A stretch of 64,000 nucleotides of DNA from Pseudofrankia inefficax (GTDB taxonomy: Bacteria; Actinomycetota; Actinomycetes; Frankiales; Frankiaceae), in assembly GCF_000166135.1 (NCBI RefSeq), contig NC_014666.1, positions 6,944,001 to 7,008,000 of the forward strand. The letters run 5' to 3'. The translations under genes and the position numbers were made by a program. The notes beneath the pieces were generated by a model. The model was not told the DNA's origin. It saw only the letters and a program-made list of their open reading frames with translations, and searched no databases. Below, in pieces: positions 12,656 through 53,705 of the stretch (positions are counted from its first letter, which is position 1; each line of letters begins with the position of its first letter).

Positions 12656-12701
12656 TCGCTGGGAAGCTGCTGATGTTCGCTGCGTGGGTGGGGAGACGTT
12701 C

Positions 12702-15700: not shown

Positions 15701-16295
15701 CCTGGTCGAGAACGAGCACGTCCCGTTCCTGGCATCCCTGCGGTACAAGGACTCGGGCCTGGAGAAACGCGCCGACTGGGAGTCGGTCTGGGAGCAGCAA
15801 CGCGCCGAAGACACCACACCCACCCCCGAAGCCGCGAAGAAGATCCGCGACAGCATTCCGCTCCCGCCGAAGTACGCCCAGGCCGACTTCCGCAAGGCAA
15901 GCTACTGGAAGGCCCGCGGCAAGTTGGACGTCCCCAAAGAACGGTTTATCTCCTACCAGCCGGCCAGCCCTGACAACGACCCGACGCTGCTGGTCGGCTG
16001 GGCCGGCTGGGACCACCGCGAGCAGGCCCAGGCGCTGGCGACGCTGATCGTCGAGCGTCAGGACAACGACGGCTGGGGCGCCGCACGGCTCACCCCGCTG
16101 CTCGCCGGCCTGCGTGAGGTGATGCCCTGGGTCCGTCAGTGGCACAACGAGGTCGACCCGCTCTACGACGGCTCCCCGGCCGAGGTCTATGACGCCTTCC
16201 TCGCCGACGCGATGGGCCGCCACAACCTCACCGCCGACGCCCTGGCCGACTGGCGTCCGCAGGCGGCCGCCCGGGGCCGGAGGGCCACGAAGTGA
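12702..16295 (+). CDS. pglX: PglX: adenine-specific DNA methyltransferase (BREX type 2)
   Basis: About 1197 residues. The AdoMet-binding motif DPTCGSGHF lies at 233-241 and the catalytic N6-adenine motif NPPY at 365-368. In BREX systems PglX methylates host DNA at an asymmetric site and so marks self. ATG 12702 follows GGGGAG by 6 nt; an in-frame GTG at 12684 is possible but has no better site. The gene starts 46 nt after pglW. The segment ~13,790-15,080, just after NPPY, is visibly richer in A/T than the flanking sequence, with codons such as ATA, TTA and AAT. It covers the region expected to hold target recognition, which points to replacement of the specificity part by recombination. Confidence 0.95.
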
Positions 16296-16452
16296 CGGAC
16301 CCCGCCCGTACTATCCGAACGCGGGCGACACCCCGGTCCGCGCCGGCCGCGAGGTGCCCGTTCGCACAGGCCCGCCCGATGTCGCGCATCGCGGCACCGC
16401 CCCGCCAGCACCCGCACGACCAGACCGTTCGCATGACCAGCAGAGGTGCCGC

Positions 16453-23522: not shown

Positions 23523-23574
23523 CCGACGCGGCTAACGCGGCGCGGGCGGGATACGCGACGACGGGGAGGCGGGC

Positions 23575-24912: not shown

Positions 24913-27263
24913 CCGAACCTGTCCCGCTAGCATCTGCCGGCGGTACGGAGTCCGCCGACCTGCTGCATCCGGTGGTGCTACACCACATCGTGAACACGCT
25001 GCAGTGGCCGGGACTGCGGCCGTTGCAGGAGGCGGCAGTGGAGCCGCTGCTCGCCGGGGCGGACGCGTTGCTGCTCGCCCCGACAGCCGGCGGGAAGACC
25101 GAAGCCGCGGCGTTCCCGGTGCTGTCTCGGATGGCGTCGGAGAACTGGCAGGGAACGTCCGTTCTGTACCTGTGTCCGCTGAAGGCGCTGCTCAACAACC
25201 TTGCGCCGCGTCTAGAGTCCTACACCGGTTGGCTCGGCCGACGCGCCGCCGTCTGGCACGGGGACGTTACCGAAAGCCGCCGCAACCGGATCCGCCGCGA
25301 ACGCCCCGATGTCCTGCTGACCACGCCTGAGTCGCTGGAGGCGATGCTGGTCAGTGTCCGCACGGACCATCGTGGCTTCTTCGTCGGCGTGCGCACGATC
25401 GTCGTCGATGAGGTGCACGCGTTCGCTGGCGACGACCGTGGCTGGCACCTGCTCGCCGTCCTCGAACGCCTGCGCCGCATCGTCGCCGCCGAGCGGACCG
25501 CCATCAACGATCTTTGCGTTCCGCGGAACGGCGTGGTCGCCTGCGAGCAGCCCGCCCAGCCAGCCGGCTCAGGTCACGGCGCGGGCCTGGCCGAGGAGCG
25601 GCCAGCCGGCGCCGCTCCCCCTGAGCTGCAGGTCATTGGCCTGTCCGCGACGGTCGGGAACCCGGAGGAGCTGCTGCGCTGGCTGCAAGGCTCCCGCGTC
25701 GGACGCCGGCCAGCGAGGGTCATCGCCCCCGACCTGCCGACCGCCCAGGCCGTGCCGCTGCCCACCGCACCGCCAGTCGCCTCGCCGCCGGACCTCGCGA
25801 CTTCCGGCGCTGCCACACGAGCCGCGCCGCCGGCCGGCGACATCGAGCTGGACTACGTCGGCTCGGTCTCGAACGCGGCCAAGGTACTCGCGGCGCTGCA
25901 CCAGGGCGAGAAACGACTCGTCTTCTGCGACTCCAAGAAGATTGTCGAGGAGCTGGGCCAGGCGTTGCGCTCGCTCGGCGTGACGACATTTCTCTCGCAT
26001 GCATCGCTGTCGGTCGACGAACGGCGCCGCTCGGAGGAAGCGTTCGCGCAGGCCCGCAACTGTGTGATCGTCTCGACGAGCACGCTGGAGCTAGGCATCG
26101 ACGTAGGCGACCTCGACCGCGTCATCCAGATCAACGCCCCAGGCACGGTCGCCTCGTTCCTACAACGCCTCGGACGCACCGGACGGCGTCCAGGGACCCT
26201 GCGCAACTGTCTGTTCCTCGCCCTGTCCGAGAGCGCCCTCGTCCACGCCGCCGGACTACTGCTTCTCTGGGGTCGCGGCTGGGTCGAGCCGGTCGTCCCC
26301 CCTCCGGAACCACGCCACATCGTCGCCCAGCAGCTCCTCGCCTACTGCCTGCAGGAAGGCCGGATCGGTGACCAGACGTGGGTCGACGAGTGGAATGGCC
26401 TCGCTCCATTCGACCGATCTGCCGAGCCGATCGTTCGTCATCTCGTGCGTATGGGCCACCTGGACTCCGACGGCGGCATGCTGTTCGTCGGCCCCGAGGC
26501 CGAACGAAGGTTCGGCCACCGCCACTTTTCCGAGCTGACCGCGGTCTTCACCGCTGCACCGGAGTTCACCGTCCTGTCCGGCCGCGACGAGATCGGCCGG
26601 ACCGACCCCGTCCTGCTCACTGACGAGGTCGAGGGCCCGCGCATGCTTTTGCTCGCCGGCCGAAGTTGGCGCGTCACCTACATCGACTGGAAACGCCGCC
26701 GCTGCTTCGTCGAGCCCGCCGAACGCGGCGGCCGGGCACGATGGTTGACCTCCGGCGATGTAGCCATGTCCTTCGACATGACCAGGGCGATGCGCGAGGT
26801 CCTCCTCGGTGCCGACCCACCAGTTCCGCTCACGCGCCGGGCCCAGGAACGGCTCGCGACCATCCGCGATAGCCATCTCGACGTCGTTCACCCTGGCGGA
26901 ACGGTGATCGTCCGTACCGACGACCTGACGGACATCCGCTGGTGGACCTGGGCTGGAGAACGCGCGAACCGCACCCTGACCGCGAGCCTCGGGGATTTGG
27001 CCGACTCCCTCCAAACCCCGACCGCTGCCTACCTTCGCTTGCGCACCGATCTGACCCCGGAGATGTGGAAGACCGCGACGGCGGACCTCGAGTCCCGCCT
27101 CTGCCTTCCGCACGTCACCGATGAGGCCCTGGCCGGCCTGAAGTTCAACACCGCGCTCCCACCGCGCCTGGCCGAAGCCACCCTCGCCACCCGCCTCGCG
27201 GACCTTCCCTCCGCGTCCACAGTCCTCCGACAACCCGTCCGCTTTACCTTCTTGCAAGCCTGA
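24909..27263 (+). CDS. brxHI: BrxHI: DEAD/DEAH-type helicase of BREX type 2
   Basis: 784 residues from GTG 24909, overlapping the brxD stop (GTGA). Superfamily 2 motifs appear in order: APTAGGKT (57-64), DEVH (167-170), LSATVG (SAT at 246-248) and RLGRTGRR (~420). The C-terminal ~350 residues resemble the accessory part of Lhr-like helicases. Motif spacing is stretched between DEVH and SAT by a Pro/Ala-rich insert (EQPAQPAGSGHG). It is the last gene of the cassette and completes the type 2 set pglW, X, Y, Z, brxD, brxHI. Confidence 0.92.
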   Translation: MTEPVPLASAGGTESADLLHPVVLHHIVNTLQWPGLRPLQEAAVEPLLAGADALLLAPTAGGKTEAAAFPVLSRMASENWQGTSVLYLCPLKALLNNLAPRLESYTGWLGRRAAVWHGDVTESRRNRIRRERPDVLLTTPESLEAMLVSVRTDHRGFFVGVRTIVVDEVHAFAGDDRGWHLLAVLERLRRIVAAERTAINDLCVPRNGVVACEQPAQPAGSGHGAGLAEERPAGAAPPELQVIGLSATVGNPEELLRWLQGSRVGRRPARVIAPDLPTAQAVPLPTAPPVASPPDLATSGAATRAAPPAGDIELDYVGSVSNAAKVLAALHQGEKRLVFCDSKKIVEELGQALRSLGVTTFLSHASLSVDERRRSEEAFAQARNCVIVSTSTLELGIDVGDLDRVIQINAPGTVASFLQRLGRTGRRPGTLRNCLFLALSESALVHAAGLLLLWGRGWVEPVVPPPEPRHIVAQQLLAYCLQEGRIGDQTWVDEWNGLAPFDRSAEPIVRHLVRMGHLDSDGGMLFVGPEAERRFGHRHFSELTAVFTAAPEFTVLSGRDEIGRTDPVLLTDEVEGPRMLLLAGRSWRVTYIDWKRRRCFVEPAERGGRARWLTSGDVAMSFDMTRAMREVLLGADPPVPLTRRAQERLATIRDSHLDVVHPGGTVIVRTDDLTDIRWWTWAGERANRTLTASLGDLADSLQTPTAAYLRLRTDLTPEMWKTATADLESRLCLPHVTDEALAGLKFNTALPPRLAEATLATRLADLPSASTVLRQPVRFTFLQA

Positions 27264-35817: not shown

Positions 35818-37113
35818 CTAGGCTGATGGAAGAGAACCGAAGGTTGTATCCAATAGTATAATGTAAAACAAGTCTGGATGTGGGATATGCGGAATTTGGG
35901 TAAGTACTGTACCGTCGGTCGACTTCCATTCGAGGACGAACGTGCCGAAATCGAAAATATGACCAAGAAGTGACCGGGTATAGGTCATATCTGTGATTTG
36001 TTCCAGCGTTGCGCCGATCACGCTTTGGTCGGTAATCCCTGACACGCAGACGATCCGTAAGTTAGTGATCACTATCTGTTCGCAAAAGCGGGCAACCGCG
36101 CGACGTACGACCGCCCTTGCGAGGACCGTCATTGCGGTGACCGTGAGGAACGCGAGACCCCACTCGACCCATCCGAGCCAGCCGCCGGTCCGCACAGCGA
36201 GGAGGGCGATCGCGACAGAGAGGAGGAATGGCAGCAGGCAGAGTGTTGGCAGCTCGCTGGCCCAGTGGGGGCGCACCCTGACAAGAGCGTGCTCGCCCAT
36301 TGAAAGGAACGGTAGCCGTCCCTCTTGATGCGCGGCGTTGGCGTCCGACACCAGCCCGTCAGGATCGGCGAGGTCGGGGCGGCGGTCCGCGAGCATCGCA
36401 CCCAGCGCGACGACCACCGCCCAGTCGCCCGTTGCGTGTCGAGCCCGGAGGTGAGCCACGAGAACGTCGACAGGGTCCCGCTTCCGGTCGTCGGTTTCGA
36501 TGTGGCGCGGAACAGGACGCAATCCCGAGAATTTTCCCGGAAATACCGAGGCGGCGATCTCCCTGCTCGACGGGATCGGCGAGGATACATCGGCCTCGCC
36601 GAGAAGGCCTGGGTATGTGGGTTCAGCCGTTGGCTTAGCGCGTCCGGCCGTGGCATTTCGGATGCCTTCGAGCAGTGTCTTCCGTGCGTCCATAACGGTT
36701 GGTTTGGCGGACAGGTCGACGGGGATTATGCTGCCGAGCAGACCCGGCCTGGAGCAGTCTTCGACGCACACCGGTATGAGCCGGCGAGCGAGCCCCTCCG
36801 GATCGCGTCGAAATACGGCCTGCCACGCCTCTTGCTCAAAGACAGATTCGATATAGGCGCGCGAGACGACGGCGATCGTGTGGTCGCTCTGGTGGATTGC
36901 CGTGTTCATCTGGTTCATCCAATGCGAGCCGGGCACGCCATCCCAGGCTTGCAGGAGAACTCTGTGCTGGTCTCTTTCTAATTGCCAGGCGATCCATTCG
37001 GCCCACGCCTCGTCAACCGGCGCATACGACACGAAGAAGTGCCACGCTCCCGGCGCGACTGTTGGCGCAGTGTCCGCTGGCAAGCGCGTGGGCTCGTCGT
37101 CCCCGTTCGCCAC
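35818..37113 (-). CDS. TIR domain - membrane - bacterial PH domain protein
   Basis: About 431 residues from GTG 37113. The TIR domain spans 24-160: it opens WHFFVSYAPVDEAWAEWI, and SRAYIESVFEQEAW carries the region where NADase-type TIRs keep their catalytic Glu. Next is a linker, then two membrane helices (~288-307 and ~315-337). The C-terminus (~345-428) is a bPH_2-like domain: VITNLRIVCVSGI, ITDMTYTRSLLG, FGTFVLEW and IPHPDLFY. TIR domains in bacteria often make or degrade NAD-derived signals during abortive infection. The start is uncertain because the frame is open much further upstream, but that part is Arg/Ser/Pro-rich noise. A/T-richer than its neighbours, so probably acquired. Confidence 0.8.
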   Translation of the reverse strand: MANGDDEPTRLPADTAPTVAPGAWHFFVSYAPVDEAWAEWIAWQLERDQHRVLLQAWDGVPGSHWMNQMNTAIHQSDHTIAVVSRAYIESVFEQEAWQAVFRRDPEGLARRLIPVCVEDCSRPGLLGSIIPVDLSAKPTVMDARKTLLEGIRNATAGRAKPTAEPTYPGLLGEADVSSPIPSSREIAASVFPGKFSGLRPVPRHIETDDRKRDPVDVLVAHLRARHATGDWAVVVALGAMLADRRPDLADPDGLVSDANAAHQEGRLPFLSMGEHALVRVRPHWASELPTLCLLPFLLSVAIALLAVRTGGWLGWVEWGLAFLTVTAMTVLARAVVRRAVARFCEQIVITNLRIVCVSGITDQSVIGATLEQITDMTYTRSLLGHIFDFGTFVLEWKSTDGTVLTQIPHIPHPDLFYIILLDTTFGSLPSA

Positions 37114-37389
37114 ACCGGTAGCGTAGCCGCTTTCGGAGGAGCTTCTCGCGCTCGGCCTGCGGCTACCCGCCATCGCAACGGCCAGCGTCCGCGCGGACGT
37201 CCCGTGAGCCTGCGCCGGGTGCTGCGTAGCTGGTGTGTGCCTACCTCCCCGAGACCTGCCGAGTCGGCGAAACAAGCTCCGCCCTCGGGCGTGCACCGAT
37301 CTCCTCCCAGCGGGGAGGCGTTCCCTACCGGTCATCTGTCGATGCCGGGCGGGGCGCCTGGCGCCGCCGTCGGCCCAGACAGGTTCGAC

Positions 37390-37571
37390 GTTGTCTTGTC
37401 TGCGGGTGACCCGGTCCAGGACGGTGCGGGTGTCGGGGGGTGAGGTCGACGCCGAGGGGTTCGAGGGCGTCGGTGAGCCGCCGATAGGCCAGCCGCGCGG
37501 CGTCCGGGCGGCCGGTGGCGGCGCGGATGCGGATCCTCTGGACGTAGAGCGCCTCGACGTGCGGCGCTCGC
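37390..37571 (-). pseudogene. fragment of a BTAD-type regulator
   Basis: On the minus strand, VEALYVQRIRIRAATGRP then DAARLAYRRLTDALEPLGVD resembles the bacterial transcriptional activation domain of SARP-like regulators (A-Y-R-R-L..A-L...L-G-V-D-P). A run of six C at about 37,440 shifts the frame before the expected continuation DTRTVLDRVTRR. No start or DNA-binding part remains. Confidence 0.4.
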
Positions 37572-37745
37572 CAGAAGCACCGAGCTGGTCAAACACCTGG
37601 TGTTGCGCCCCTATCCTGGTGCTCCCGAGGGTGACGCCGACGCGTACATCGACCCGGATCACTTCCACGAGTTGTTCTTCGCCGACGTGGACGCGGAACA
37701 GGCGGCATTCATGGCGTCGAGCCGGCGTGGCTTCGCCGCGTCGGG
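37572..37745 (+). pseudogene. fragment of an alpha/beta hydrolase
   Basis: The + strand reads GAPEGDADAYIDPDHFHELF and then ADVDAEQAAFMASSRRGFAA, like the lid segment of a common actinomycete alpha/beta-hydrolase family (YIDP..F...F..DV.A..A..M...QRP). Neither the catalytic Ser region nor the His end is present. Confidence 0.4.
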
Positions 37746-38133
37746 CTCCCGACCGGTCGCGCCTGCCCCCTCTCCGCTCGACGGCGGGGAAGACGTCGCT
37801 CTCGTCGATCCGGCCGGAGGCAATCCGCGAGTGCGCTTCGGTGACGTCATCTCTGAGATTCCGTGCCGCTACCGTGACGCGCGGCTCGCAAAGAAGGCCG
37901 ATTTCGGCGGTCGCGGCGTGAAGGTTACCGCCCCCATCCAGCCCGTGGGGATAAACCTCGAACCTACCGTAGAGCCGTTTGCTCGTTGGGCGGTTCAGCT
38001 GTTAACCCCACCGAGGGCTGAATTTCGGCGGACGGCTTGACGGGAGACCGCGCTGTGCGCTGAAGTCGATGCCGTGTCCGTCGGGGGGCGCACCTGGAAC
38101 TCTCCCTCGCCGGCGTCGCGCCTTGGGGGATCC
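37746..38133. other. leader region before the HxD/radical SAM cluster, no gene
   Basis: About 390 bases without a supported gene. It should contain the promoter of the three-gene cluster that starts at 38134, but I cannot pick convincing -35/-10 boxes. Confidence 0.3.
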
Positions 38134-41100
38134 ATGGATATCAACGAGCTCGACAGCCGGTTACGAATATCGAACGGAGTGTTCGCCCTCACGGGCGACA
38201 CCATTCCGAACACGACGGTGGTCGACCTGCTCGCGCGGTACACCGCGGGCTCGCCGCTTACGCTGACCGGATCCGTCAAGCAGCGGACGGGACCGGGCCA
38301 CCGGACGATCTCCATTACGGGCACCAGCAGCTTTCTGAACGTCACGGGCCTGCGGACCACTGCCTCCTTCACTGTGGACGGGGCGGGGCGGCCGCAGATA
38401 GCCGTGCGGTTCGACCTGGACACCCGCCCGGGGCACTGGCGCTTCTCCACCAGTTTCCCCGACCTGCCGCCGTTCAAGGCGACCCTCGGGGAGCCGGTCG
38501 ACGACCAGCCCCAGCCGCCGGGACCGAGCCGCCGAGGCCCGAACCGGCCCCGCAACCAACCACCGTCACCGTCGGTCCCGGGCTCCCCGTCGCCGCCGGG
38601 CACGATCGATTCGGCCGAGCCAGGGCTGCTCGACACCCTGGTCCTCACCGACGCGGCGTTCATTCTGACCAGCCAGGACGGCGACGCGGACGGCATCGCG
38701 ATCCAGCGTGGCCTCACCTTCGTCGGCAAGGTCGACCCGACGCCGTTCGTAGGTCCGCTCGAGCTGCTTGTCGGAAGCCTCGGTTCGCTGCCGATTCACG
38801 GCCCGATCCTTTTGCCGCTTCCCACCGACGTCACCCCCGAGCTCGCGCCGGACAGCTGGCCCTGGGAGAAGGGCGGGAGCACGGTCGCGGGGATCACCCT
38901 GAGTGTCGACCTCGGCAACGCGCCGCCGCTGCCGGGCACCGACCTCAGCCTGCGCGACCCGCGTCTCGTCATCTACACCCCGACCGGCACGACCTGGGCC
39001 AAGGCGAACGACAGCTACCAGCCGACGGTCGGCCTGACGGGTGACGTCACCGTACCGTCCCTGAGCCGGACGCCGATTCACCTGACGGCCGACATCCCGC
39101 CCGGATGGACGGACGCGTCCCTCACCGCCACGTTCGCCGACCTGCCGTTGACCAGCCTGGCGCCGCTGCGGGGACTCGTCGGCCGGGCGGACCTGTTCGG
39201 CGCGCTGCCGGCATCGCTGCGCTCGGCCGGGCCGGCACTGGGCGGGATCGCCCTGCGCGCGGTGCGGATCGACGTGTCCGCGTCGGGCCGTGCCATCGCC
39301 GTCGAGGAGATAGCCGTCACCGTCGGCCTTCCGCGGCTGTCGTTGGCGGTCGCCGGCGTGGCCACGCTGACCGGGCTCGAGGTCACCTTCGCCGTGGCGT
39401 CGCCGTCGCGCGCACCGACGATCGACCTCGGGATCGTGGGCACCGGAACCATCCCGGCCCTGGGCGCCGCCTTCGAGCTGGAGCTGGACGTGACCCCCGG
39501 CGGGGCGATGGACAGCAGCGTCGCCTTCGGCAGCCTCCTGGACGCGACGATCCCGCTGGCGCGGGTGTTCGGTGATCTGGGGCTCCCGGCGCCCGCCGAT
39601 CTGACGATCGCTGCCGCGAACGTCGTCATCAGCCCAAGCGGCGGCTACGAGCTCGACGCGCGGCTGGCCACGGATCCGGGCTGGACGCTCGACCTCGGCC
39701 CGGTGCCCGTCACGGTCCGCGACCTCGTGCTGGTGGCCACGAAGCCGCGGGGCCAGCCGACCTCGGCGTCTCTCACGGGCCAGCTCGCGTTCGGCTCGGC
39801 GCTGCGGCTCAGCGTGAACTACAGCCTGCCCGGCGAGTTCGTCCTGCTCGGCTGGTTCGGGTCGACGTCGCTGCGGGCGCTGGTCGCCGCCCTGTCCGAC
39901 GCCCCCGTCGACCTGCCGGCCGGGTTCGACCTCCAGATCGAGCAGAGCTGGGTCCGGATCGACCGGACGGGTGGCGGGCTGCGTCTCACCGCCGACACGG
40001 TCATCGACGGGTTCGGCGAGCTGGTGTTCACGGTCAGCCGCGCCCAGGGGCGGTGGGGCTTCGCGGCCGGAGTCGACCTGCGCGCCGGCCTGGCCGCGCT
40101 GTCCGCGATTCCCGGGCTGACGGCGCTGCGCGAGTTCGAGTCGGTCACCGGCCTGAGCGACCTGATGATCGTCGCGTCCTCGCTGGACGATCCCGGTTTC
40201 ACGTTCCCCGATCTGGCGCCGTCGCTGCCGGAGTTCGGCGCGGGCCGGATGCGGCTGCCGGGGTGGGCGCTCGGCGCCACGCCTGGCCTGACCGTCTACG
40301 CCCGCGCCGATCTGGGCCGCAGTCAGGGCATCCAGACGATCGCGCGCTGGCTCGGGGCGAGCATCGACGGTTCGGTCGGGGTGACGCTCACGGTCAGCGC
40401 CCCCGACCCGGGGACCGCGTCTGCGCTGTTCATCAGCGTCGCCACGACGGTCGACGGGGTGGTCGTCGCCGGCCGCCTGGGCCTCGCGTTGGTCGACGGC
40501 CGGCCGGCGGTGTTCCTCGACGGCACCGCGACCGCCACCATCCAGGGGCAGCCCGTGACGTTCGCGCTCGGCGCGTTCGTCGCCGTGAACGGTGTGCTGA
40601 TCACCGGCGGGTATCGCGGCACGATCCGGTTCTCCTTCGTGGACGGCGGGTCCGGGCTGGCCCTGAGCGATCTCGGCCTCGTGGTCGGGCTGAGCTGGGA
40701 AGGCATACCCGCGTTCGGTATCGCGGCGACGATCGACGTCGGCACGTTCGAGAGCTCGCTGGCGGTCTTCTTCGACTCGGTGGACCCCTCGCGCAGCCTG
40801 CTCGCCGGCTCGGTCACCGAGCTGAGCCTCCTCGACGTCGCCACGACGATCGCGGGCACCAGCGTCGCCGAGCCGCTCGCCTCCGTGCTGCGCCAGATGG
40901 CGCTGCGCGCGCTCGACGCGTTCACGATCGACGGATCGGTCGCGGCCGCCCTGGACGGCCGCGACCTCGCCGCCGTCTCCGCCGCGTTCGCGCCGCACAC
41001 GCCACTGCCGTCAGCGGGAGACCAGGTACTGCTCGTCACGGCCACCCCGGGCCAGCGCTGGCACGTCACCGATCTGAGCACCATGACCCACTACAGCCTC

Positions 41101-42261
41101 ACCGGGTCCGGCGGGGTCATCCAGGTCGCCTACGACCCCCAGCTGTACTGCGCGCCGAGCCCGACCCAGATCGGGCCGAACACCTTCCCACGCGGCTTCC
41201 ACATCGAGACCGCGATCGAGTGGTTCCTGCCCGACATCGACCGGCTTCGCGTCGAGATCGACCCCGATCGCGGCATCGCGGCCGACCTCGACATCGCCCC
41301 GTTCGTCATCTGGCGCAGCGACTTCTTCGCCCTGACCGACGCGTCAGGGACGGGCGGGCCGACGCTGTCGCTGGCGACGTTCACCCAGTCGGACGCCACC
41401 CAGCCCGATCCGGCGCTTCGCCCACCGCACCTGCTCGTCAGTGCGGCCGTGCGGCTGCTCGGCACACCGCTCGGCTCGGCCTATCTCGACGTGAACGAGT
41501 CCGGCCTCACCGTGCGGCTGGTCGAGACCACCGCGAGCGGCGTCCGGCTGGACCTCAGCGGCACCGTCGGCCGGGACGCGCTGGCTCTCACGGCCGGGCT
41601 CGGCGTCGGCATCGGCGGGCGCATCGACCTCGGCCCGCTCGGCTGGATCGACGTCACCACCCAGGCTCACGGCAGTCTGGACGTCGGCTACGCGAAGAAC
41701 GTCGCTCATGCCACCGTCCAGGCCGGGGTGACGCTGCCGGTGCTCGGCTCGTTGGACCTCCCGCCGCTGAGCCTCACCGTCAGCGGGACGGCGATCGGCG
41801 ACATCGGCGGCGCCCTCTGGGCGGAGCTCGTCGAATCGGTCAAGGCCGCCGTCCAGGACGCCGCCCGCTGGCTCGACCTGGTCAAGCAGGGTGTCATCGC
41901 CGGGATCGCGGGTGCCGAGCAGATCGGCCAGGTGCTCCAGCACCAGTGGGGGCTCGCCGCCGACGGCGTCGGCGGTCTCATGCACGACGCCGGATACGCG
42001 GCCGACGAGATCGCCACTGGCATGTCGGCGGCCGGCGCCTCCGCCGAGCAGATCGGGCGCACCCTCATCGGCTTCGGCTATGCCACCGACGCCGTCGCCG
42101 ACGTGGTCGGCGCCTTCAGCGGTCACACCGACTTCTCGCTCGGCCACGTCGACACCCCGCAGGTGCACACCGATGGCCACGCCGACGTACTCGGCATCGG
42201 TGGCCACAGCGACACGACGTTCGTTCCGCACGGCGACACGAGCACCCACGTCGACACCTGA
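38134..42261 (+). CDS. giant beta-rich protein with a C-terminal His-x-Asp repeat tail (candidate radical SAM substrate)
   Basis: About 1375 residues with no signal peptide or membrane helix. Most of the chain is repetitive beta structure with alternating hydrophobics (LTGSVKQ, SASLTGQLAFGSALRLSVNY, VNGVLITGGYRGTIRFSF), interrupted by a Pro/Arg linker near 130-165. Residues ~1250-1328 are helical repeats (GLAADGVGGLMHDAGYAADE, SAEQIGRTLIGFGYATDAVA). The last 46 residues (1330-1375) contain seven H-x-D motifs. ATG 38134 follows GGGGGA; an in-frame GTG at 38074 is possible. A radical SAM/SPASM gene follows 87 nt downstream. I infer that the tail is the site modified by that enzyme. A metal-binding tail is the alternative. 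Confidence 0.8.
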   Translation: MDINELDSRLRISNGVFALTGDTIPNTTVVDLLARYTAGSPLTLTGSVKQRTGPGHRTISITGTSSFLNVTGLRTTASFTVDGAGRPQIAVRFDLDTRPGHWRFSTSFPDLPPFKATLGEPVDDQPQPPGPSRRGPNRPRNQPPSPSVPGSPSPPGTIDSAEPGLLDTLVLTDAAFILTSQDGDADGIAIQRGLTFVGKVDPTPFVGPLELLVGSLGSLPIHGPILLPLPTDVTPELAPDSWPWEKGGSTVAGITLSVDLGNAPPLPGTDLSLRDPRLVIYTPTGTTWAKANDSYQPTVGLTGDVTVPSLSRTPIHLTADIPPGWTDASLTATFADLPLTSLAPLRGLVGRADLFGALPASLRSAGPALGGIALRAVRIDVSASGRAIAVEEIAVTVGLPRLSLAVAGVATLTGLEVTFAVASPSRAPTIDLGIVGTGTIPALGAAFELELDVTPGGAMDSSVAFGSLLDATIPLARVFGDLGLPAPADLTIAAANVVISPSGGYELDARLATDPGWTLDLGPVPVTVRDLVLVATKPRGQPTSASLTGQLAFGSALRLSVNYSLPGEFVLLGWFGSTSLRALVAALSDAPVDLPAGFDLQIEQSWVRIDRTGGGLRLTADTVIDGFGELVFTVSRAQGRWGFAAGVDLRAGLAALSAIPGLTALREFESVTGLSDLMIVASSLDDPGFTFPDLAPSLPEFGAGRMRLPGWALGATPGLTVYARADLGRSQGIQTIARWLGASIDGSVGVTLTVSAPDPGTASALFISVATTVDGVVVAGRLGLALVDGRPAVFLDGTATATIQGQPVTFALGAFVAVNGVLITGGYRGTIRFSFVDGGSGLALSDLGLVVGLSWEGIPAFGIAATIDVGTFESSLAVFFDSVDPSRSLLAGSVTELSLLDVATTIAGTSVAEPLASVLRQMALRALDAFTIDGSVAAALDGRDLAAVSAAFAPHTPLPSAGDQVLLVTATPGQRWHVTDLSTMTHYSLTGSGGVIQVAYDPQLYCAPSPTQIGPNTFPRGFHIETAIEWFLPDIDRLRVEIDPDRGIAADLDIAPFVIWRSDFFALTDASGTGGPTLSLATFTQSDATQPDPALRPPHLLVSAAVRLLGTPLGSAYLDVNESGLTVRLVETTASGVRLDLSGTVGRDALALTAGLGVGIGGRIDLGPLGWIDVTTQAHGSLDVGYAKNVAHATVQAGVTLPVLGSLDLPPLSLTVSGTAIGDIGGALWAELVESVKAAVQDAARWLDLVKQGVIAGIAGAEQIGQVLQHQWGLAADGVGGLMHDAGYAADEIATGMSAAGASAEQIGRTLIGFGYATDAVADVVGAFSGHTDFSLGHVDTPQVHTDGHADVLGIGGHSDTTFVPHGDTSTHVDT
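42121..42258 (+). repeat. seven HxD motifs at the C-terminus of the giant protein
   Basis: In order: HTD, HVD, HTD, HAD, HSD, HGD, HVD, separated by 4-9 residues, with Thr or Gly often adjacent (GHVDT, GHSDT, PHGDT, THVDT). The motif is confined to the last 46 residues of the 1375-residue protein. An aromatic-x-Asp spacing is what three-residue cyclophane-forming radical SAM enzymes act on. Confidence 0.9.
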
Positions 42262-42348
42262 GCCCGTCGCCCGCGGCCCACTCGCAGCCCAGAGCAGCTC
42301 GGCCCGTCCCCCGTCAGCCCGCCCGCTCGGAAGGCGGTCGAAGATCTC

Positions 42349-44403
42349 ATGACCGTGGAACTGCGCCCGTTCGGGGTGCGGTGCAACCTCGCCTGTACCT
42401 ACTGCTATCAGGACCCGCAGCGGGCCGGAGGACCACCAGGGCGGGCGGCCGCCTACTCGCTGGACGCGATGAAGGACGCGGCGGCGCGGCGGACCGGGCA
42501 GGTGACGCTGTTCGGCGGCGAGCCGCTGCTGCTCGGGCTCGACGACCTGGAGGACCTGCTGCGCTGGGGCGCGGCGCGGCCCGGTGGCGTCGGCATCCAG
42601 ACCAACGGAACGCTGATCACGGACGCCCACGTCGCCCTGTTCCGGGCCTACGACGTGTCGGTCGGCATCTCCGTCGACGGGCCCGACGAGCTCAACGACC
42701 TGCGCTGGCACGGGTCGCTCGCGCGCACCCGGGCCGCCACCGCCGCGACGCATCGCGCGATCGCCAAGCTGGCCCACGCCTATCGGCCCCCCGGCCTGAT
42801 CGTCACGCTGCACCGGCGCAACGCGGCCCCGGACGTGCTGGGCCGGCTGCTCGCCTGGGCGGGGGAGATCGACGCCCTGGGGGTGCGCTCGATGCGGCTG
42901 CACCTGCTCGAGGTGGACGGGCCGGCCGCCGCCGCGGCGGCGTTGACCGAGGCGGAGAACATCGCCGCGCTGACGGCGTTCGACGAGCTCCAGGCGCGGC
43001 TCACGACGCTGCGCTTCGACGTGCCGGACGAGACGCGGGCGGCCCTGCGCGGCCAGGACGGCGCCGGATCGTGCGTGTGGGGCGGCTGCGACCCCTACAC
43101 GACGCCCGCGGTGCAGGGCATCGAAGGCGACGGCCGGGCCAGCAACTGCGGGCGGACGAACAAGGACGGCGTCGACTTCGGCAAGGCCGACCGCGGCGGC
43201 TTCGACCGTTCCCTCGCCCTCTACGTGACGCCACGGGAGGACGGGGGCTGCGCCGGCTGCAGGTTCTTCCTGGCCTGCCGTGGTCAGTGCCCCGGGACCG
43301 GTATCGACGGTGACTGGCGCAACCGGTCCGAGCACTGTGGTGTGTGGCTCGCGATGTTCGCCCGGGCGGAACGGTCGGTCGCGGCTGAGGGCCGGGTGCC
43401 GGTGTCCCTCGACCCGCGCCGGCCCAGCCTCGAACGCCGGCTGACCGAACACTGGCGACTGGGCCGCGACGCGACGATCGCCGGCCTTCTGCGCGAGGAG
43501 GAGGCGGCCGCCCGCGCGACGGTCTCGGTCGCGCCTACTCGTCCCGAAGGCGCGGTGGACGCGCCAGTGCGTGCCGTCGTGCCGGAGCCCCGGATCTCCT
43601 TCGCCGGGACCGGGGCCGCCGGGCGAGGGCGCGCGCTGCTCGCCGCCGCGCGCCGGGCCGCCTGGATGTCGGCGCTCGCGGTGGTCGCCGCCGGGCACGA
43701 GGACGCCGCGCTGGTGTCGCCGGGTGCCGCGCACGCGCTGGACGTCCGATCCGCCGCGGCGACCCTCGGCCTGCACGCCCGGGTGGTGGATCGTCCGGCC
43801 GGCGGTGCGCCGCCGGACCAGGCCGGGCCACTCCTGATCGTCGGTGGCCAGGCCGAGATGACCCGCGTTCCCGAGTCCCCGGCGCCGGCCTGTTGCCAGG
43901 CGCCGCGTTCCGCTGGCGTGGGCGCGGCTGGTACGCCGCCGCTGCCGCCGCCCTGGCTGACTTACGGCGCCGCGGTCGACGGGCCGACCCAGGTCGACGT
44001 GCCGGCGGACGCGATCAACCTGCTGTGGTGGCGCCTGGGGATCGTGCCCGTCGGCCATCCGCCGTGCTCGCCAGCCTGCGCCGAGAGTCTGGCCCTGGCG
44101 GCGAACCGGCGCGCCGCGGCCGTCCAGGCCGGGATCGACGGCCTCGCCGCGCTCGACGAGGTGCTCGCCTGGCCGGCCGAATGGTCGGCCCTGCACGGCG
44201 TCGCCGAGTTGCGGGCGCCGCTGCTGCGGCTCACCTACCCGGTCGCCTATACGCCCCGGCGGCTGACCGTTCGGTTCGACGGCCCGGCCCGGCCGGCGGA
44301 CCGCGCGGTCGGCCTGAACTTTCCGTATCGCCTGTCGCCCACCGCCGCTCCGCGTCGGGCGGCACCGTCTCCTGACTCGATCGCCGCCGGAGGGACACCG
44401 TGA
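42349..44403 (+). CDS. radical SAM/SPASM peptide maturase with C-terminal extension
   Basis: 684 residues. The radical SAM cluster motif C-x3-C-x2-C is at Cys12, Cys16 and Cys19 (RCNLACTYCYQDP), followed by FGGEPLL and QTNGTL. A full SPASM domain follows: Cys242/247, Cys267 after G-x4, C-x2-C-x5-C-x3-C at 301, 304, 310 and 314 (GQCPG), and Cys330. It should therefore hold two auxiliary 4Fe-4S clusters, as in peptide-modifying enzymes of the cyclophane and sactipeptide kind. A ~300-residue extension ends with a His/Cys site, HPPCSPAC at 570-577, that could bind metal. It starts 87 nt after the giant HxD protein, and its stop overlaps the EEP gene (GTGA). Its substrate is probably the HxD tail (inference). 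Confidence 0.9.
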   Translation: MTVELRPFGVRCNLACTYCYQDPQRAGGPPGRAAAYSLDAMKDAAARRTGQVTLFGGEPLLLGLDDLEDLLRWGAARPGGVGIQTNGTLITDAHVALFRAYDVSVGISVDGPDELNDLRWHGSLARTRAATAATHRAIAKLAHAYRPPGLIVTLHRRNAAPDVLGRLLAWAGEIDALGVRSMRLHLLEVDGPAAAAAALTEAENIAALTAFDELQARLTTLRFDVPDETRAALRGQDGAGSCVWGGCDPYTTPAVQGIEGDGRASNCGRTNKDGVDFGKADRGGFDRSLALYVTPREDGGCAGCRFFLACRGQCPGTGIDGDWRNRSEHCGVWLAMFARAERSVAAEGRVPVSLDPRRPSLERRLTEHWRLGRDATIAGLLREEEAAARATVSVAPTRPEGAVDAPVRAVVPEPRISFAGTGAAGRGRALLAAARRAAWMSALAVVAAGHEDAALVSPGAAHALDVRSAAATLGLHARVVDRPAGGAPPDQAGPLLIVGGQAEMTRVPESPAPACCQAPRSAGVGAAGTPPLPPPWLTYGAAVDGPTQVDVPADAINLLWWRLGIVPVGHPPCSPACAESLALAANRRAAAVQAGIDGLAALDEVLAWPAEWSALHGVAELRAPLLRLTYPVAYTPRRLTVRFDGPARPADRAVGLNFPYRLSPTAAPRRAAPSPDSIAAGGTP

Positions 44404-45287
44404 GATTCTCGATCTTCCACCAGAACATGAAATCGTACGGCGGCCTGAAGGTGAACCTGAACGCCAACATGAAGAAAGCGTTCTGGAAGATCAATCTGGG
44501 ATACATGACTCATCCCGTGCTCGCCGTCGGCTTCACCGAGGTGCGTAACAACAGCTCGGCGCCGAAGAGCCTGGCGAAGATCGCGAAGAAGCTCGACCAC
44601 CGCCTCGTCAACGTCAAGACGGTGGCGGTGGGGCAGACCGCTCTCCTGTGCAAGGAGTACATCACCATGGTGGCGCTGGGCTCTCCCACCGCGGCGACCC
44701 GATTCGAGGTCCAGCATTACGGGAAGGTGACCCTGCTCAACACCTTGGCGCCGATCTGCGTGCCCGTCGGCACGGGCGTCGGCGAGCTGGGCGAGGACGA
44801 CCTGCCCCCCAACTACCTGGTCGACTTTCGTGGTCTCGGCTACCTGCATGGGCATATCAGGACCACGGCCGCCGACTGGGCGGACAAGGAAATGGTCATC
44901 GGGTTCGCGCACAACATGTACAACACGGGCCTGCCGAGCACCATGATGGGGAAGCTTCCGGCCATGGTGCAGTCGATCTACACGAAGCACGGTATTCCTG
45001 GGACGGCGGCGGCGGTCGTCGGCGGTGACTTCAACGTCCCTCCCTACAACCGCGGCTGGCTGACCTCCGCCGCGGAGGTGGACGAGGACACCGGCTACTA
45101 CATCGACACGACGGCGTCCCATGTCTATGACTACTGGTTCAACCATGCGGGCGTCGGCAGCTTCACGGCCGACCTCGACCACGATCTCGACGACGACGAC
45201 GCCGTTGTCTGGCCACAGACCTTCGGCGCGAAGCGCTCCGACCACAAAGGCGTCTCCCTGGAACTGGACACCAAGCTCTGGCTGTGA
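44400..45287 (+). CDS. endonuclease/exonuclease/phosphatase (EEP) fold protein
   Basis: 295 residues from GTG 44400, overlapping the radical SAM stop; GGAGGG sits 5 nt upstream. The EEP catalytic set is recognisable: Asn in FHQNM, Glu47 in GFTEVRN, Asp210 and Asn212 in VGGDFNVPP, and S-D-H at 280-282 (RSDHKG). Enzymes of this fold cleave DNA, RNA or phosphoesters with Mg2+. The rest of the sequence is divergent, so the substrate is unknown. Its C-terminal region also contains an acidic run (DLDHDLDDDDA). Translational coupling to the maturase implies a shared pathway; it could be the effector of the system or act on the modified product (speculative). Confidence 0.8.
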   Translation: MRFSIFHQNMKSYGGLKVNLNANMKKAFWKINLGYMTHPVLAVGFTEVRNNSSAPKSLAKIAKKLDHRLVNVKTVAVGQTALLCKEYITMVALGSPTAATRFEVQHYGKVTLLNTLAPICVPVGTGVGELGEDDLPPNYLVDFRGLGYLHGHIRTTAADWADKEMVIGFAHNMYNTGLPSTMMGKLPAMVQSIYTKHGIPGTAAAVVGGDFNVPPYNRGWLTSAAEVDEDTGYYIDTTASHVYDYWFNHAGVGSFTADLDHDLDDDDAVVWPQTFGAKRSDHKGVSLELDTKLWL

Positions 45288-49330: not shown

Positions 49331-49577
49331 CACACGGGCAGGCGATCAGCGACCGCTCCCAGACAGGCCCCTGGTAGGCGGTTGACCGGTCGACCGTCAT
49401 TTGTTCGGTCGGGGGGACTGCTTCAAGATTCCGACACAGGAAAACAGGCGCCCCGTCTCGCCCGCCGCTGACCCGCAAGCCCTGTCGGCTGTGGGGACGT
49501 CACACCCGGTGAGACGATATTGACCGGCGTACCGGTACTCGGGAGTCGGTGGCGGTTCGGTGCGGGGGTGGCGGCCG

Positions 49578-52500
49578 GTGACGGAGGGCCTTTCGGACGA
49601 CGAGGTCCGGGAGCTCGGACGACGGTTTCCGGATGTCGTCACGGCGCGCCGAGTGCTGACACTCGCGGGGTGGTCGCTGGATCAGGTGCCGTCATGGCAG
49701 GTGGACACGTCGGGGCAGTTCTGGCATGAGGTGTCCATCCGGCTGGCCCACGGCGTCGTGGCCGATGGGCGGCGCCGTCTGTTTGAGGCCGCGTCGTGGC
49801 TGCCGTCGGAGGACCCCGGGTTCCGGGCCGGCGGGGCGGTGGTCGGCGGGCAGGCCCGGTTGGTGCCGTCGCCGGATCTGCTGCCGGTCCTGCCGGCGCG
49901 GTTCGTGGCCCGGGACGCCGACGCGGCAGCGGTGCGGACTCTGCTGAGCGCCGGCGGTGCCGGCCAGGTGGTGGGTGTGGTCGGAATGGGCGGCGCGGGC
50001 AAGTCGACGCTGACCGCCGCACTTGTGCGGGACCCGGCGGTGGCCGCGGCGTTCCCCGACGGGGTGGTGTGGGTCGGAGTCGGCCAGCGGCCGGAGGTTG
50101 CTGACACCCTCGCGGCTGCGCTGGCCGCCTTCGGCGACCGGGCGCCGGTGGTGGACGTGACGGACGGAACGCGACGGCTGCGTCGTCTGCTGGCCGGCGC
50201 GCGGGCGCTGGTCGTGCTGGACGACGTGTGGGACATCGAGGTGCTCCAGGCGTTCGCGGTGCCGGCGGGCGTGCGGCTGCTCGTGACGACCCGGTCGCGG
50301 GACGTCCTGTTCGGGGACGCGGCCGTACACGAGCTGACGATGGCCGACGAGAAGACGTCACGACAGGTGCTGGCGGCCTATGCCGGCGCCACGGTGGCTG
50401 ACCTGCCAGCCGTGGCGGACGAGGTCGTCCAGCGGTGTGGTGGCCTGGTTCTGGCGTTGGCTCTGATCGGGGCGATGGTCGGCGCGAGTCGGCTCGGCGC
50501 GGGCCGCGCCTGGGAGAACACGGCCGAACGGCTGCGCCGCGCGGACCTGACCGAGATCAGGAGCCGGTTCCCGGGTTATCCGCATCCGAACCTGCTCGCC
50601 GCACTGGACGTCTCCGTGACCGCGCTGGCCGACGCGCACGCGGCGCGGTTCCGCGAGCTGGCCGTGTTCGAAGGCCGCGGCGCCGTCCCAGCCGCCGTGG
50701 TGGTCGGTCTGTGGCAGGCCACAGCTGGCCTCGACGACCTGGAAGCCGAGGACCACCTCGACCTGCTCGCCCGCCACTCGCTGGTCCGTATCGACCCGGC
50801 CTCCGGCACGGTCGGTCTGCACGACCTGCTGTTCGACTACACCCGCGGCGGGCTCACCGCCGGCCAGCTCCGCGACCTGCACGGCGCGACGGCGGGCTGG
50901 CTGCTCGACCGCTGGGGCGGGCTGGACGAAAGCCTGCCCGGCCTGCGCGACGTCGCCACGTTCGACGACGCGGACCGGTACGGCCTCTCAGCGCTCGTCG
51001 CGCACCTGCTCGCCGCCGACAGCGTCGACAACGTCGACCGCCTCCTCGCCGCCGAACGCCCGGCGCCGAGCGGGCGGGCAGAGAGCGTCTGGTACACCGC
51101 CCACGAGGACCAGGGCAGTACCACGACCTATCTGGCCTCGGTCCGCGCGGCCTGGCGCGATGCGCAGACGCGATCTCCCTCCGACGACCCACGGGCGTTC
51201 ACTCGCCAAGCCTGTTGCGCGCTGTTGGTCGGCTCGATCACCAGCCTGGCCGCGAACGTCCCGCCAGCGCTGCTCCTGCGCCTGACCGAAGCCAGACTCT
51301 GGCCGCCCGCCCGCGCGCTCGCCTATGCCCAGGCCATCCCGAGCCCCCAGGCACGGGCGGAGGCGTTGACCGGGCTCGCGCCGCATCTGCCCGCCGACGA
51401 GCGAGGCCCGGTTCTCGCCCAAGCGCTCCAGGCCGCCCTGACCATCGACCTCCGGTATGCCCGGGCACAGGCGCTGACCGCGCTGGGGCCACATCTGACC
51501 GTCGACCTGCTCGCCCAGGCGCTCGCGGCCGCCATCGCCCTTGACGATCCGGCGGACCGGGCCTGGGCGCTGATCGCGTTGGCGCCACACCTGACCGCCG
51601 ACGAGCGAGGCCCGATCCTCGACCGGGCACTCGCCGCCGCCTGCTCCATTGACCTGCCCTACGTCGCGTCATGGGTGTTGGCCGCGCTGGCCCCGCAGCT
51701 GCCCGCGGGTCTGCTCGCTGAGGCCCTGGCCGCGGCCAACGCCCTCGAGAATCCGGCCGCCCGGGCCGAAGCACTGAGCGGGGTCGCCCCGTATCTGCCT
51801 GCCGACCTGCTCGACAAGGCGCTCGCCGCGGCCAACGCCCTCGACGATCCGGCCGCCCGGGCCGAAGCGCTGAGCGGGGTCGCCCCGTATCTGCCCGAAG
51901 GCCAGCGCGGTCCGGTCCTCGATCGGGCCCTGGCCACTGCCACCGCCCTCGAGCAGCTGCACGACCGGGCGCGCATCCTGACGGGTTTGGCACCGCAGCT
52001 GCCCGCGGAGCGGCGTGTGCCGGTCCTCGCCCAAGCCCTCGACGCCGCCGCCGCCAGTGCGATCGGCCTGCCGGCCGTGTTGACCGGGCTCGCGCCGCAT
52101 CTTCCAGCCGAACTGCTGGCCCAGGCAGTGGCCACCGCCATCACGGTCAAGTCTCCGGTCGAGCGGGTGGAAGCAGTGACGGCGTTGGCATCCGGCCTGC
52201 CGGCCGACCAGCGCGGAACGGTCCTCAGCCAGGCCCAGGCCAGCGCCAGCGCTCTCGACCGCCCGGGCGACCGGGCGCGGGAGTTGGCCTTGCTGGCGCC
52301 GTGGCTGCCGGTCGAGCAACGTAGGTCGGTCCTCGCCGAAGCGCTCGCCGCCGTCACCACTCTCGACCGTCCGGATACCCGGCTGTGGGTTCTGACCGCC
52401 CTGACGCCGCAGTTGCCCGTCGACCTGCTCAGCCGCGCGCTCACCGCCGCCACCACCATCGACAGCCGCGAGGCACGGGTGTCGGCGTTGACCGCGCTGG

Positions 52501-53705
52501 CGCCCTTCCTGTCCGCCGAGCACCATGGGCACCTTGCCGAGGCGCTGGTCGCCATCACCGCCTTCGACACGCCGGGCGGCCAGGAACAGGCGCTGACCGC
52601 GCTGGTGCCCCACCTTCCCGTCAACCTGCTCCCCCAGGCATTGGCAGCCGCCACCGCCATCGGCACCGCGCATTCCCAGGCACGAGCGCTGACGGCACTG
52701 GCACCGCGGCTGCCCGCCGACCTGCTCGGCCAGGCACTCGACAACGTCAGAGCCAATAGATCGCCGAACATCCGAGCGGACGCACTGACCGGTCTCGCGC
52801 CGTGGCTACGCGCCTCCCAACGCGGCCCGGTCCTCGCCGAGGCGCTCGCCGACGCCGCCGCCATCCACAACCCTGGCTTTCGAACGCAGGCGTTGACCGC
52901 CCTGGCGCCGCACCTGCCCGCCGATCTTCTCGCCCGGGCGGTGAAGGACGCGCGCGCCCTCGATGCTCCGGACGATCGGGCGCGCGCGCTGACTGCGTTG
53001 GCTCCGCATCTGCCGCCCCGGCGGCGAGGTCGGGTCCTCGCCCAGGCTCTCGCCGCCGCCACCTCCCTCGACCGGCCCTACGGCCGCGCCTGGGCGCTGA
53101 CCGCGCTGGCGCCACAACTGACGGCCGACCAGCGGGGCCCGGTCCTCGCCCAGGCGCTCGCCGCGACCACCGCCATCGACGAACCAGCCGACCTGGCCTG
53201 GGTCCTGATCGCGCTCGCACCGTCGCTGCCGGCCGAGCAACGCGGCCCAGCTCTCGCCCGGGCGCTGGCCGCCGCCACGCCCCTCGACCCGCCCTACAGT
53301 CGGGCACAGATGCTGACTGGGCTGGCGCCGCAGCTGCCCGTCGACCTGCTCCCCCAGGCGCTGGCCGCCGCCACCACCATCGATGATCCGCATGACCGGC
53401 TCAGCGCGTTGGCCGGGCTGGCGCCGCACCTGCCCCCCAACCTGCTGACCCAGGCATTGACCATCACGACCGCCAGCGGTGATCCGGACTACCGGGCGCA
53501 CGCGCTGGCCGCGCTGGCCCCGCACCTGCCGACCGACCAACGTGGACCCGTCCTCGCCCTGGCTCTCGAGTCGGCGGCGATGTCCGGCAGAGCCACGGTC
53601 GTCGCGGTCAGCGCCGCGGCGCTGACCAACGCCGTAGCCCCGGCGAGCACGGCCGCCGGATCTGTGGTGTCCGCGTTTCTACGGGTCCAGCGCTGGTGGC
53701 CCTGA
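49578..53705 (+). CDS. EAD1 - NB-ARC STAND ATPase with 22 helical repeats
   Basis: About 1375 residues. Residues 1-78 (GLSDDEVRELGRRFPDVVTA, DGRRRLFEAA) match effector-associated domain 1, an adaptor that pairs sensor ATPases with effectors. The NB-ARC ATPase follows, with Walker A GMGGAGKST at 136-144, Walker B LVVLDDVWD near 211-219 and LLVTTRSRD. A winged-helix segment comes next, and from ~595 to the end there are 22 repeats built on L-x-x-L-A-P-x-L-P. STAND proteins of this design act as invader sensors in bacterial conflict systems, the repeats binding the trigger. GTG 49578 is preferred over GTG 49560. No separate EAD1-bearing effector gene is visible nearby. Confidence 0.88.
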   Translation: MTEGLSDDEVRELGRRFPDVVTARRVLTLAGWSLDQVPSWQVDTSGQFWHEVSIRLAHGVVADGRRRLFEAASWLPSEDPGFRAGGAVVGGQARLVPSPDLLPVLPARFVARDADAAAVRTLLSAGGAGQVVGVVGMGGAGKSTLTAALVRDPAVAAAFPDGVVWVGVGQRPEVADTLAAALAAFGDRAPVVDVTDGTRRLRRLLAGARALVVLDDVWDIEVLQAFAVPAGVRLLVTTRSRDVLFGDAAVHELTMADEKTSRQVLAAYAGATVADLPAVADEVVQRCGGLVLALALIGAMVGASRLGAGRAWENTAERLRRADLTEIRSRFPGYPHPNLLAALDVSVTALADAHAARFRELAVFEGRGAVPAAVVVGLWQATAGLDDLEAEDHLDLLARHSLVRIDPASGTVGLHDLLFDYTRGGLTAGQLRDLHGATAGWLLDRWGGLDESLPGLRDVATFDDADRYGLSALVAHLLAADSVDNVDRLLAAERPAPSGRAESVWYTAHEDQGSTTTYLASVRAAWRDAQTRSPSDDPRAFTRQACCALLVGSITSLAANVPPALLLRLTEARLWPPARALAYAQAIPSPQARAEALTGLAPHLPADERGPVLAQALQAALTIDLRYARAQALTALGPHLTVDLLAQALAAAIALDDPADRAWALIALAPHLTADERGPILDRALAAACSIDLPYVASWVLAALAPQLPAGLLAEALAAANALENPAARAEALSGVAPYLPADLLDKALAAANALDDPAARAEALSGVAPYLPEGQRGPVLDRALATATALEQLHDRARILTGLAPQLPAERRVPVLAQALDAAAASAIGLPAVLTGLAPHLPAELLAQAVATAITVKSPVERVEAVTALASGLPADQRGTVLSQAQASASALDRPGDRARELALLAPWLPVEQRRSVLAEALAAVTTLDRPDTRLWVLTALTPQLPVDLLSRALTAATTIDSREARVSALTALAPFLSAEHHGHLAEALVAITAFDTPGGQEQALTALVPHLPVNLLPQALAAATAIGTAHSQARALTALAPRLPADLLGQALDNVRANRSPNIRADALTGLAPWLRASQRGPVLAEALADAAAIHNPGFRTQALTALAPHLPADLLARAVKDARALDAPDDRARALTALAPHLPPRRRGRVLAQALAAATSLDRPYGRAWALTALAPQLTADQRGPVLAQALAATTAIDEPADLAWVLIALAPSLPAEQRGPALARALAAATPLDPPYSRAQMLTGLAPQLPVDLLPQALAAATTIDDPHDRLSALAGLAPHLPPNLLTQALTITTASGDPDYRAHALAALAPHLPTDQRGPVLALALESAAMSGRATVVAVSAAALTNAVAPASTAAGSVVSAFLRVQRWWP
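51363..53577 (+). repeat. 22 tandem 32- or 36-residue repeats in the STAND protein
   Basis: Each unit starts (A/V)L(T/S/I)(A/G)LAP-x-LP. Two classes occur: 32-residue units continuing with A/V-x-LL, and 36-residue units continuing with x-x-QRGPVL. Both end in a helix with A-D-D-P-x-x-R-A-x. Units at 51,732 and 51,828 are almost identical in DNA over ~70 bases and are offset by exactly 96 bases, showing recent duplication. Confidence 0.9.

Follow-up and report, generated by a model that had tools for sequence, protein, structure and literature searches.

What does a radical SAM/SPASM enzyme do beside a giant protein whose C-terminus is studded with His-x-Asp (H-x-D) motifs? The question is raised by a cassette of three genes, all on the + strand, at positions 38,134-45,287 of a 64,000-nucleotide (nt) stretch of the genome of the soil bacterium Pseudofrankia inefficax (GCF_000166135.1, NC_014666.1, positions 6,944,001-7,008,000 of the forward strand); this whole stretch is referred to as the window. 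The genes encode the giant protein, the enzyme and an EEP-like protein, and an original prediction for this DNA held that the enzyme modifies the tail of the giant protein with the EEP-like protein as its partner. The explanation that, as a whole, we consider probable is that the enzyme, which carries a fused DUF483-like domain, cross-links the H-x-D tail, with cyclophanes the most likely product, that its family is mainly phage-borne, and that the window system is a cellular offshoot of a phage-borne module. The bond would most likely run from the imidazole of each histidine to the beta-carbon of the aspartate at +2, so that the giant tail could contain as many as seven three-residue cyclophanes.

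The open reading frame (ORF) of the giant protein spans 38074-42261 (+) and encodes 1375 amino acids (aa) from the ATG at 38134, its presumed start. The last 45 residues contain seven histidines and seven aspartates, every one of them within an H-x-D motif, with Asp at the +2 position in 7/7 motifs. Seven motifs were reached in 0/100,000 shuffles of the last 46 residues, which bears out the predicted tail of seven H-x-D. These seven are also the only H-x-D motifs in the entire protein; as 5000 shuffles of the full sequence averaged 1.5 motifs and reached 7 at most, the count alone is rare in such shuffles, and the clustering in the tail is decisive.

Among 57 other genomes searched, a full-length orthologue of the window enzyme was found only in a second genome of the same genus (G003), on a contig where all three genes recur in unchanged order (identity of 59% for the giant protein, 67% for the enzyme and 45% for the EEP-like protein). 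The G003 giant tail likewise has seven H-x-D motifs. All 14 motif His and Asp residues are kept between the two tails, against 47% identity over the remaining tail residues. Twelve of the 14 motif codons are identical and two carry synonymous changes; in the other aligned tail codons, the amino acid is altered in 16 of 30. An ORF comparison of the window with 52.9 kb of the 72.9-kb G003 contig recovered the cassette as the sole clear synteny, the remaining matches being a two-component kinase and regulator (33-43%), one ORF pair (32-33%) and shadow reading frames.

Table 1. Features of the cassette, in window coordinates.
Feature	Position	Strand	Remarks
Giant carrier protein, 1375 aa	38134..42261	+	G003 orthologue at 59% identity; distant homologues in four plasmid records
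Helical-looking segment before the tail, residues 1228-1330	41815..42123	+	possible recognition region, judged from sequence only
H-x-D tail, seven motifs	42124..42258	+	His 1331, 1338, 1345, 1349, 1358, 1366, 1372
Radical SAM/SPASM enzyme fused to DUF483-like domain, 684 aa	42349..44403	+	Pfam Radical_SAM 1.4e-14
CX3CX2C motif, C12, C16, C19, radical SAM cluster	42382..42405	+	invariant in 25/25 aligned rows
SPASM-region cysteines, C242, C247, C267, C301, C304, C310, C314, C330	43072..43338	+	invariant in 25/25 rows
DUF483-like domain, residues 402-682 of the enzyme	43552..44394	+	separate gene in phage relatives; partner profile
EEP-like protein, 295 aa	44400..45287	+	QN, E, H-N, GGDFN, D and SDH motifs

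The gap between the giant gene and the enzyme gene is 87 nt (42262-42348), and a 4-nt overlap (44400-44403) joins the enzyme gene to the EEP-like gene. Both spacings were as predicted, as was the complete set of SPASM cysteines, which is invariant throughout an alignment of 25 rows that includes the window enzyme. A Pfam search of the enzyme found Radical_SAM, with Fer4_12 slightly below the cut-off. What had been overlooked is that the C-terminal ~280 residues of the enzyme form a DUF483-like partner domain and that the module is mostly phage-borne. A profile of partner proteins, with the window row itself among its members, matches residues 402-682. This domain is 31% identical (E 1e-14) to the partner encoded by Thermus phage Cumys, which the Cumys record annotates as a DUF483-domain protein; Pfam PF04467 had no match in the window enzyme.

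A plasmid search with the window enzyme returned two haloarchaeal relatives, in Halomicrococcus and Halorussus. The Halomicrococcus enzyme belongs to a tail-like operon that includes a baseplate J gene; there, a 206-aa protein ending in H/Y-x-D repeats is followed directly by the enzyme and then by the partner. A phage search with the Halomicrococcus enzyme led to the Thermus phages Cumys, phiMa and phiLo, and in all three, as in the Halomicrococcus plasmid, enzyme, partner and H/Y-x-D tails are present. Cumys and phiMa, which are 96% alike, encode a protein of 343 and 342 aa, respectively, that consists largely of H-x-D repeats and lies two genes past the tail collar fibre annotated in Cumys, and in phiLo a pair of repeat-tailed proteins is encoded ~4 kb downstream, on the opposite strand. 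The window enzyme shares 48% identity with the Cumys radical SAM enzyme, and the enzymes of all three phages themselves terminate in a few H-x-D.

Viral contigs were scanned with an alignment of seven enzymes (enzyme only) as the query, and the best 80 of 191 relatives were analyzed. A carrier was counted where an ORF besides enzyme and partner had at least five H-x-D/N per 100 residues, and the control set comprised 73 other loci of distant radical SAM genes (649,678 bases, 2365 ORFs). An H-x-D/N repeat protein was present in 72/80 viral loci compared to 0/73 control loci by the same criterion, and in 37/39 clusters at 70% identity; with H-x-D alone as the criterion, the counts were 71/80 and 0/73. 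The carriers support the original proposal that the radical SAM enzyme acts on the tail. They lie upstream of the enzyme in 71 viral loci, with an overlap of 4 or 1 nt in 31; their lengths range from ~180 to 1471 aa, and they carry as many as 97 motifs. Two loci (L124 and L126) have F-x-N tails in place of dense H-x-D/N, with F-x-S and F-x-Q in addition in L126, and a second, wider criterion of at least 12 aromatic-x-D/N per 100 residues was reached in 74/80 viral loci, the control maximum being 8. Within the dense stretches of 83 distinct carriers, the +2 residue of 2624 His is D in 2117 cases and N in 469 (2586 together), a share that is partly a product of selection, and so inflated, as carriers were chosen by H-x-D/N density. 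Comparison across these loci associates enzyme, partner and repeat tail with one another and reveals conservation of the motifs. The module, which is mainly phage-borne, has three parts, namely a protein with a long aromatic-x-D/N tail (often tail-fibre-like), a radical SAM/SPASM enzyme and a DUF483-like partner. In the window version, the last two are fused, and the carrier is a giant from a family of its own, with EEP genes often near its distant homologues.

The same distribution bears on two other explanations. In the passages of Kolesnik et al. 2024 that concern the module, DNA modification is proposed for the radical SAM and DUF483 proteins, with cyanobacterial homologues beside deazapurine genes (PMC11437467), so that the repeat protein would be something else. 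However, what the Thermus phages, this genus, the Halomicrococcus plasmid and 72 of the 80 viral loci share is a repeat-tailed protein, and the nearest families of the enzyme act on peptides or proteins. A protein substrate is therefore favored over DNA, and we regard DNA modification as scarcely credible. The H-x-D tails could instead be unmodified metal-binding spikes, with the enzyme acting on another target in the operon, given that His and Asp bind metals and that phage spikes may carry metal ions. Some tails, however, are H-x-N or F-x-N, which are poor metal ligands, and we consider metal-binding spikes to be very unlikely.

With cross-linking of the tail as the preferred reading, the nature of the product can be approached through the motifs and the relatives of the enzyme. 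Three-residue cyclophane enzymes join His C2-Ala/Arg, Tyr-Asp/Arg, Phe/Trp-Asn and Phe-Ser at i+2; HaaB and YhhB accept His as the aromatic residue, and F-x-N and F-x-S are both used by known enzymes of this kind, according to the sections of PMC11002830 that treat them. H-x-D/N with occasional F-x-N/S would match this pattern. Among NCBIfam models, the cyclophane maturases YhhB and AmcB come nearest to the window enzyme, ahead of the sulfatase maturase, with all scores far under cut-off, and in a comparison based on its AlphaFold model the top structure match was the cyclophane synthase ChlB with its precursor, with anSME close behind. Cyclophane chemistry is consistent with both the motif grammar and these nearest structures. 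A tail that is the substrate but ends in a different product (beta-hydroxylation, epimerisation, desaturation or another His-Asp bond) has in its favor that the chemistry of the SPASM family is varied and that the structural neighbors of the enzyme include sulfatase-maturating, sactipeptide and epimerase enzymes. The fixed i/i+2 spacing, with an aromatic residue at i, D/N at i+2 and a swap to F-x-N/S, is nonetheless the grammar of cyclophanes, and we deem such an alternative product unlikely.

Several observations weigh against cyclophane formation in the tail or against the association on which it is based. Among the matches listed, the window enzyme scores far below the curated cyclophane-maturase cut-offs, at best 69 vs 445 bits (YhhB), and by structure comparison it is roughly as near to sulfatase-maturating enzymes as to ChlB. 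Five viral enzymes that were scanned are also under these cut-offs among the best 25 families for each; their leading NCBIfam matches are the sulfatase maturase, AmcB and the dynobactin enzyme, and the sulfatase maturase ranks first or second for 4/5. The model of the fused C-terminal domain of the window enzyme is poor, with low confidence. The carrier association is drawn from the best 80 of the 191 viral relatives, and six of these 80 loci (L098, L099, L114, L116, L121 and L125) have no carrier. In five of them, the position of the carrier, judged by relatives, lies near or past the contig end, so that it may have been cut off; L098 has none despite 4.2 kb of upstream sequence. The Halorussus plasmid encodes enzyme and partner, with no repeat protein found within 18.9 kb. 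The expectation that the neighbors of the maturase always include an H-x-D protein is thus upheld at the 72 viral loci, with two more carrying F-x-N, and fails in its "always" because homologous loci without a carrier exist, namely the six viral loci, the majority of which were probably truncated at a contig end, together with the Halorussus plasmid.

A partner homologous to the C-terminal domain of the window enzyme is encoded in 76/80 viral loci, and the four loci without one (L099, L114, L125 and L140) have little or no sequence on its usual side. PF04467 was above cut-off in 2/3 viral partners of one scan and in 0/5 of another, where it remained below cut-off. A metal site in the partner is suggested because Cys-Cys, His and Cys residues are invariant in its alignment. 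The predicted partner structure is confident (predicted local distance difference test, 88.9) and had no match to solved structures of the Protein Data Bank (PDB) or to viral structures at E<=0.001. Three viral partners, and many in the alignment, run on into a methyltransferase-like domain; such fusions are found at L104 9710-11182, L127 2994-4448 and L134 9194-10528, and the solved relatives of this domain include, among the matches listed, the plantazolicin methyltransferase BamL.

Two further features of the viral loci were observed. The radical SAM enzyme has an H-x-D/N tail of its own (at least three motifs in the last 80 residues) in 55/80 loci, as if self-modifying, and enzymes with their own H-x-D tail include L091 9977-11227 and L093 7977-9425. 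At L108 2427-4070, one of the repeat-tailed carriers includes a collagen-like domain close to the N-terminus.

The enzyme is sparsely distributed among cellular genomes. At E<=1e-30 it occurs in 2/393 genomes of the class, the same two that encode the giant protein, and in 1/346 genomes of a phylum sample, this being the window's own. A scan of genome contigs with the window enzyme returned 47 loci, all of distant radical SAM proteins, and scans with single viral proteins as the query returned 0 or 1 locus each. Viral relatives are up to 55% identical to the window enzyme, and a viral origin is suggested because the window enzyme is placed inside the viral set in the tree, nested with L095, L097 and L101 at a support of only 85/87.

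The giant protein and the EEP-like protein have different relatives. Searches of Pfam, NCBIfam and PHROGs gave the giant protein no assignment better than chance, and no homologue of its family was found in viruses; the viral ORFs of loci L094-L173 have no similarity to the giant or the EEP-like protein at E 1e-3. It was present in 2/393 genomes of the class and in 0/5 of a further genome set, and had one weak match, in another gene context, among 395 genomes of the Bacteroidota, the phylum of genome G394. Distant homologues are found on plasmids of Hymenobacter, Herpetosiphon and Calothrix, and weakly of Azospirillum (24% identity over 24% of the query), with an H-x-D-dense ORF in none of the four fetched plasmid stretches. 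The Hymenobacter and Herpetosiphon homologues terminate in long helical-looking repeats of ~22 residues, and the helical-looking segment before the H-x-D tail sits where these repeats are carried. Downstream of the Hymenobacter homologue lies a DUF4231 gene (L078 11148-13157) whose N-terminus, as read from its sequence, is SLOG-like.

The catalytic motif set of the EEP superfamily consists of N, E, H, GDFN, D and SDH, and all of these are conserved in three aligned sequences including that of the window, in keeping with the GDFN and SDH motifs predicted for the third protein. The EEP-like protein had no Pfam or PDB match, and hhalign against EEP relatives gave a probability of 6.7, with the GDFN stretch alone aligned. 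EEP-type genes lie near giant homologues in three of the four plasmid stretches (Herpetosiphon by Pfam Exo_endo_phos, Calothrix by similarity, Azospirillum by annotation), and the gene table of the Hymenobacter stretch contains no EEP gene. For the former three stretches, the gene table, which is incomplete, lists no radical SAM gene. The predicted partnership of the EEP-like protein in the modification is rejected because EEP-type genes sit beside giant homologues that have neither an H-x-D tail nor a listed radical SAM gene. The EEP-like protein looks as if it belongs with the giant protein rather than with the maturase, and the giant and EEP proteins therefore seem to have been paired first, with the enzyme and the H-x-D tail as presumed later additions.

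The cassette is located in a defence-rich region, preceded by a TIR gene and a BREX type 2 (Pgl) operon and followed by an NB-ARC gene, a setting that may be mere neighborhood. The operon (7904-27263, +) looks complete, with PglW, PglX-like, BrxC/PglY, PglZ, BrxD and a DEAD helicase; the flanking genes encode a TIR and bacterial PH protein (35818-37668, -) and an EAD1 and NB-ARC STAND protein (49560-53705, +). In the part of a 2020 eLife paper on these proteins, Frankia inefficax holds the record number of EAD1 proteins (PMC7159879).

We infer that the tail is the substrate, the product a cross-link and the outcome a stiff, protease-resistant rod. We lean, by a narrow balance, towards a broader view in which phages, a haloarchaeal element and an actinobacterium share a radical SAM and DUF483 maturase that would convert the long H-x-D/N or F-x-N/S repeats at the ends of structural proteins into poly-cyclophane rods, each chain bearing tens of cross-links. 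The H-x-D-tail system looks like an overlooked means of stiffening or chemically arming long protein tails. If true, radical SAM cross-linking would reach beyond short peptides, to giant proteins and the tail fibres of virions, and cyclophane chemistry would supply structural material for both rather than make small peptides. It would also provide a function for the DUF483-like family and for a phage module thought to act on DNA, and define a new class of densely cross-linked protein material.

Finally, the cassette can be set beside known systems. The original prediction knew of no described system of this composition. In titles and abstracts of the open-licence literature among the matches listed, the module is not linked to a protein substrate, a cyclophane or a phage tail. 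The claim nonetheless calls for qualification, as the radical SAM-DUF483 module is already in print in a 2024 paper with another role suggested. In its passages on the module, that paper (Kolesnik et al., PMC11437467) describes a module that in Cumys, phiMa and prophages combines a radical SAM protein with a DUF483 protein and a third, unknown one, reports radical SAM-DUF483 and methyltransferase-DUF483 fusions in InterPro and suggests DNA modification as the role; these passages do not mention the H-x-D repeats of the third gene, and "histidine" has 0 occurrences in the main text. The Thermus phage module is alike in its homologous enzyme, its DUF483 partner and a third gene with H-x-D repeats, and differs in the role proposed for it and in that the window version would serve a giant cellular protein. 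The His-Xaa-Ser system (HxsABCD) shares His-x-residue repeats with radical SAM maturases, but has Ser at +2 and two radical SAM enzymes, whereas the window has Asp at +2 and one radical SAM gene; HxsB is a weak match to viral enzymes (e.g., L094, 1.7e-05). ChlA/ChlB resembles the window system in that ChlB, at ~20% identity, is the top structure match of the modelled enzyme. The title of a 2025 paper in the Journal of the American Chemical Society reportedly calls it a "multiple cyclophane synthase". It differs in having a ribosomally synthesized and post-translationally modified peptide (RiPP) precursor and an alpha-ketoglutarate HExxH hydroxylase fused to the radical SAM domain, as described in the pertinent part of PMC12636437. 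The triceptide enzymes (XncB, OscB, MscB, YxdB, HaaB and YhhB), in the aspects of them considered here, are alike in combining a radical SAM/SPASM enzyme with aromatic-x-D/N/S motifs. Two triceptide traits, a maturase with CX3CX2C and a full SPASM cysteine set and repeated aromatic-x-(D/N/S/R/K) motifs, are present in the window enzyme and in the presumed substrates, respectively. Known triceptide precursors are short peptides of leader and core, whereas the carriers here are a giant of 1375 aa and viral ORFs of up to 1471 aa, the enzymes score under the NCBIfam cut-offs, and a DUF483-like partner accompanies them.

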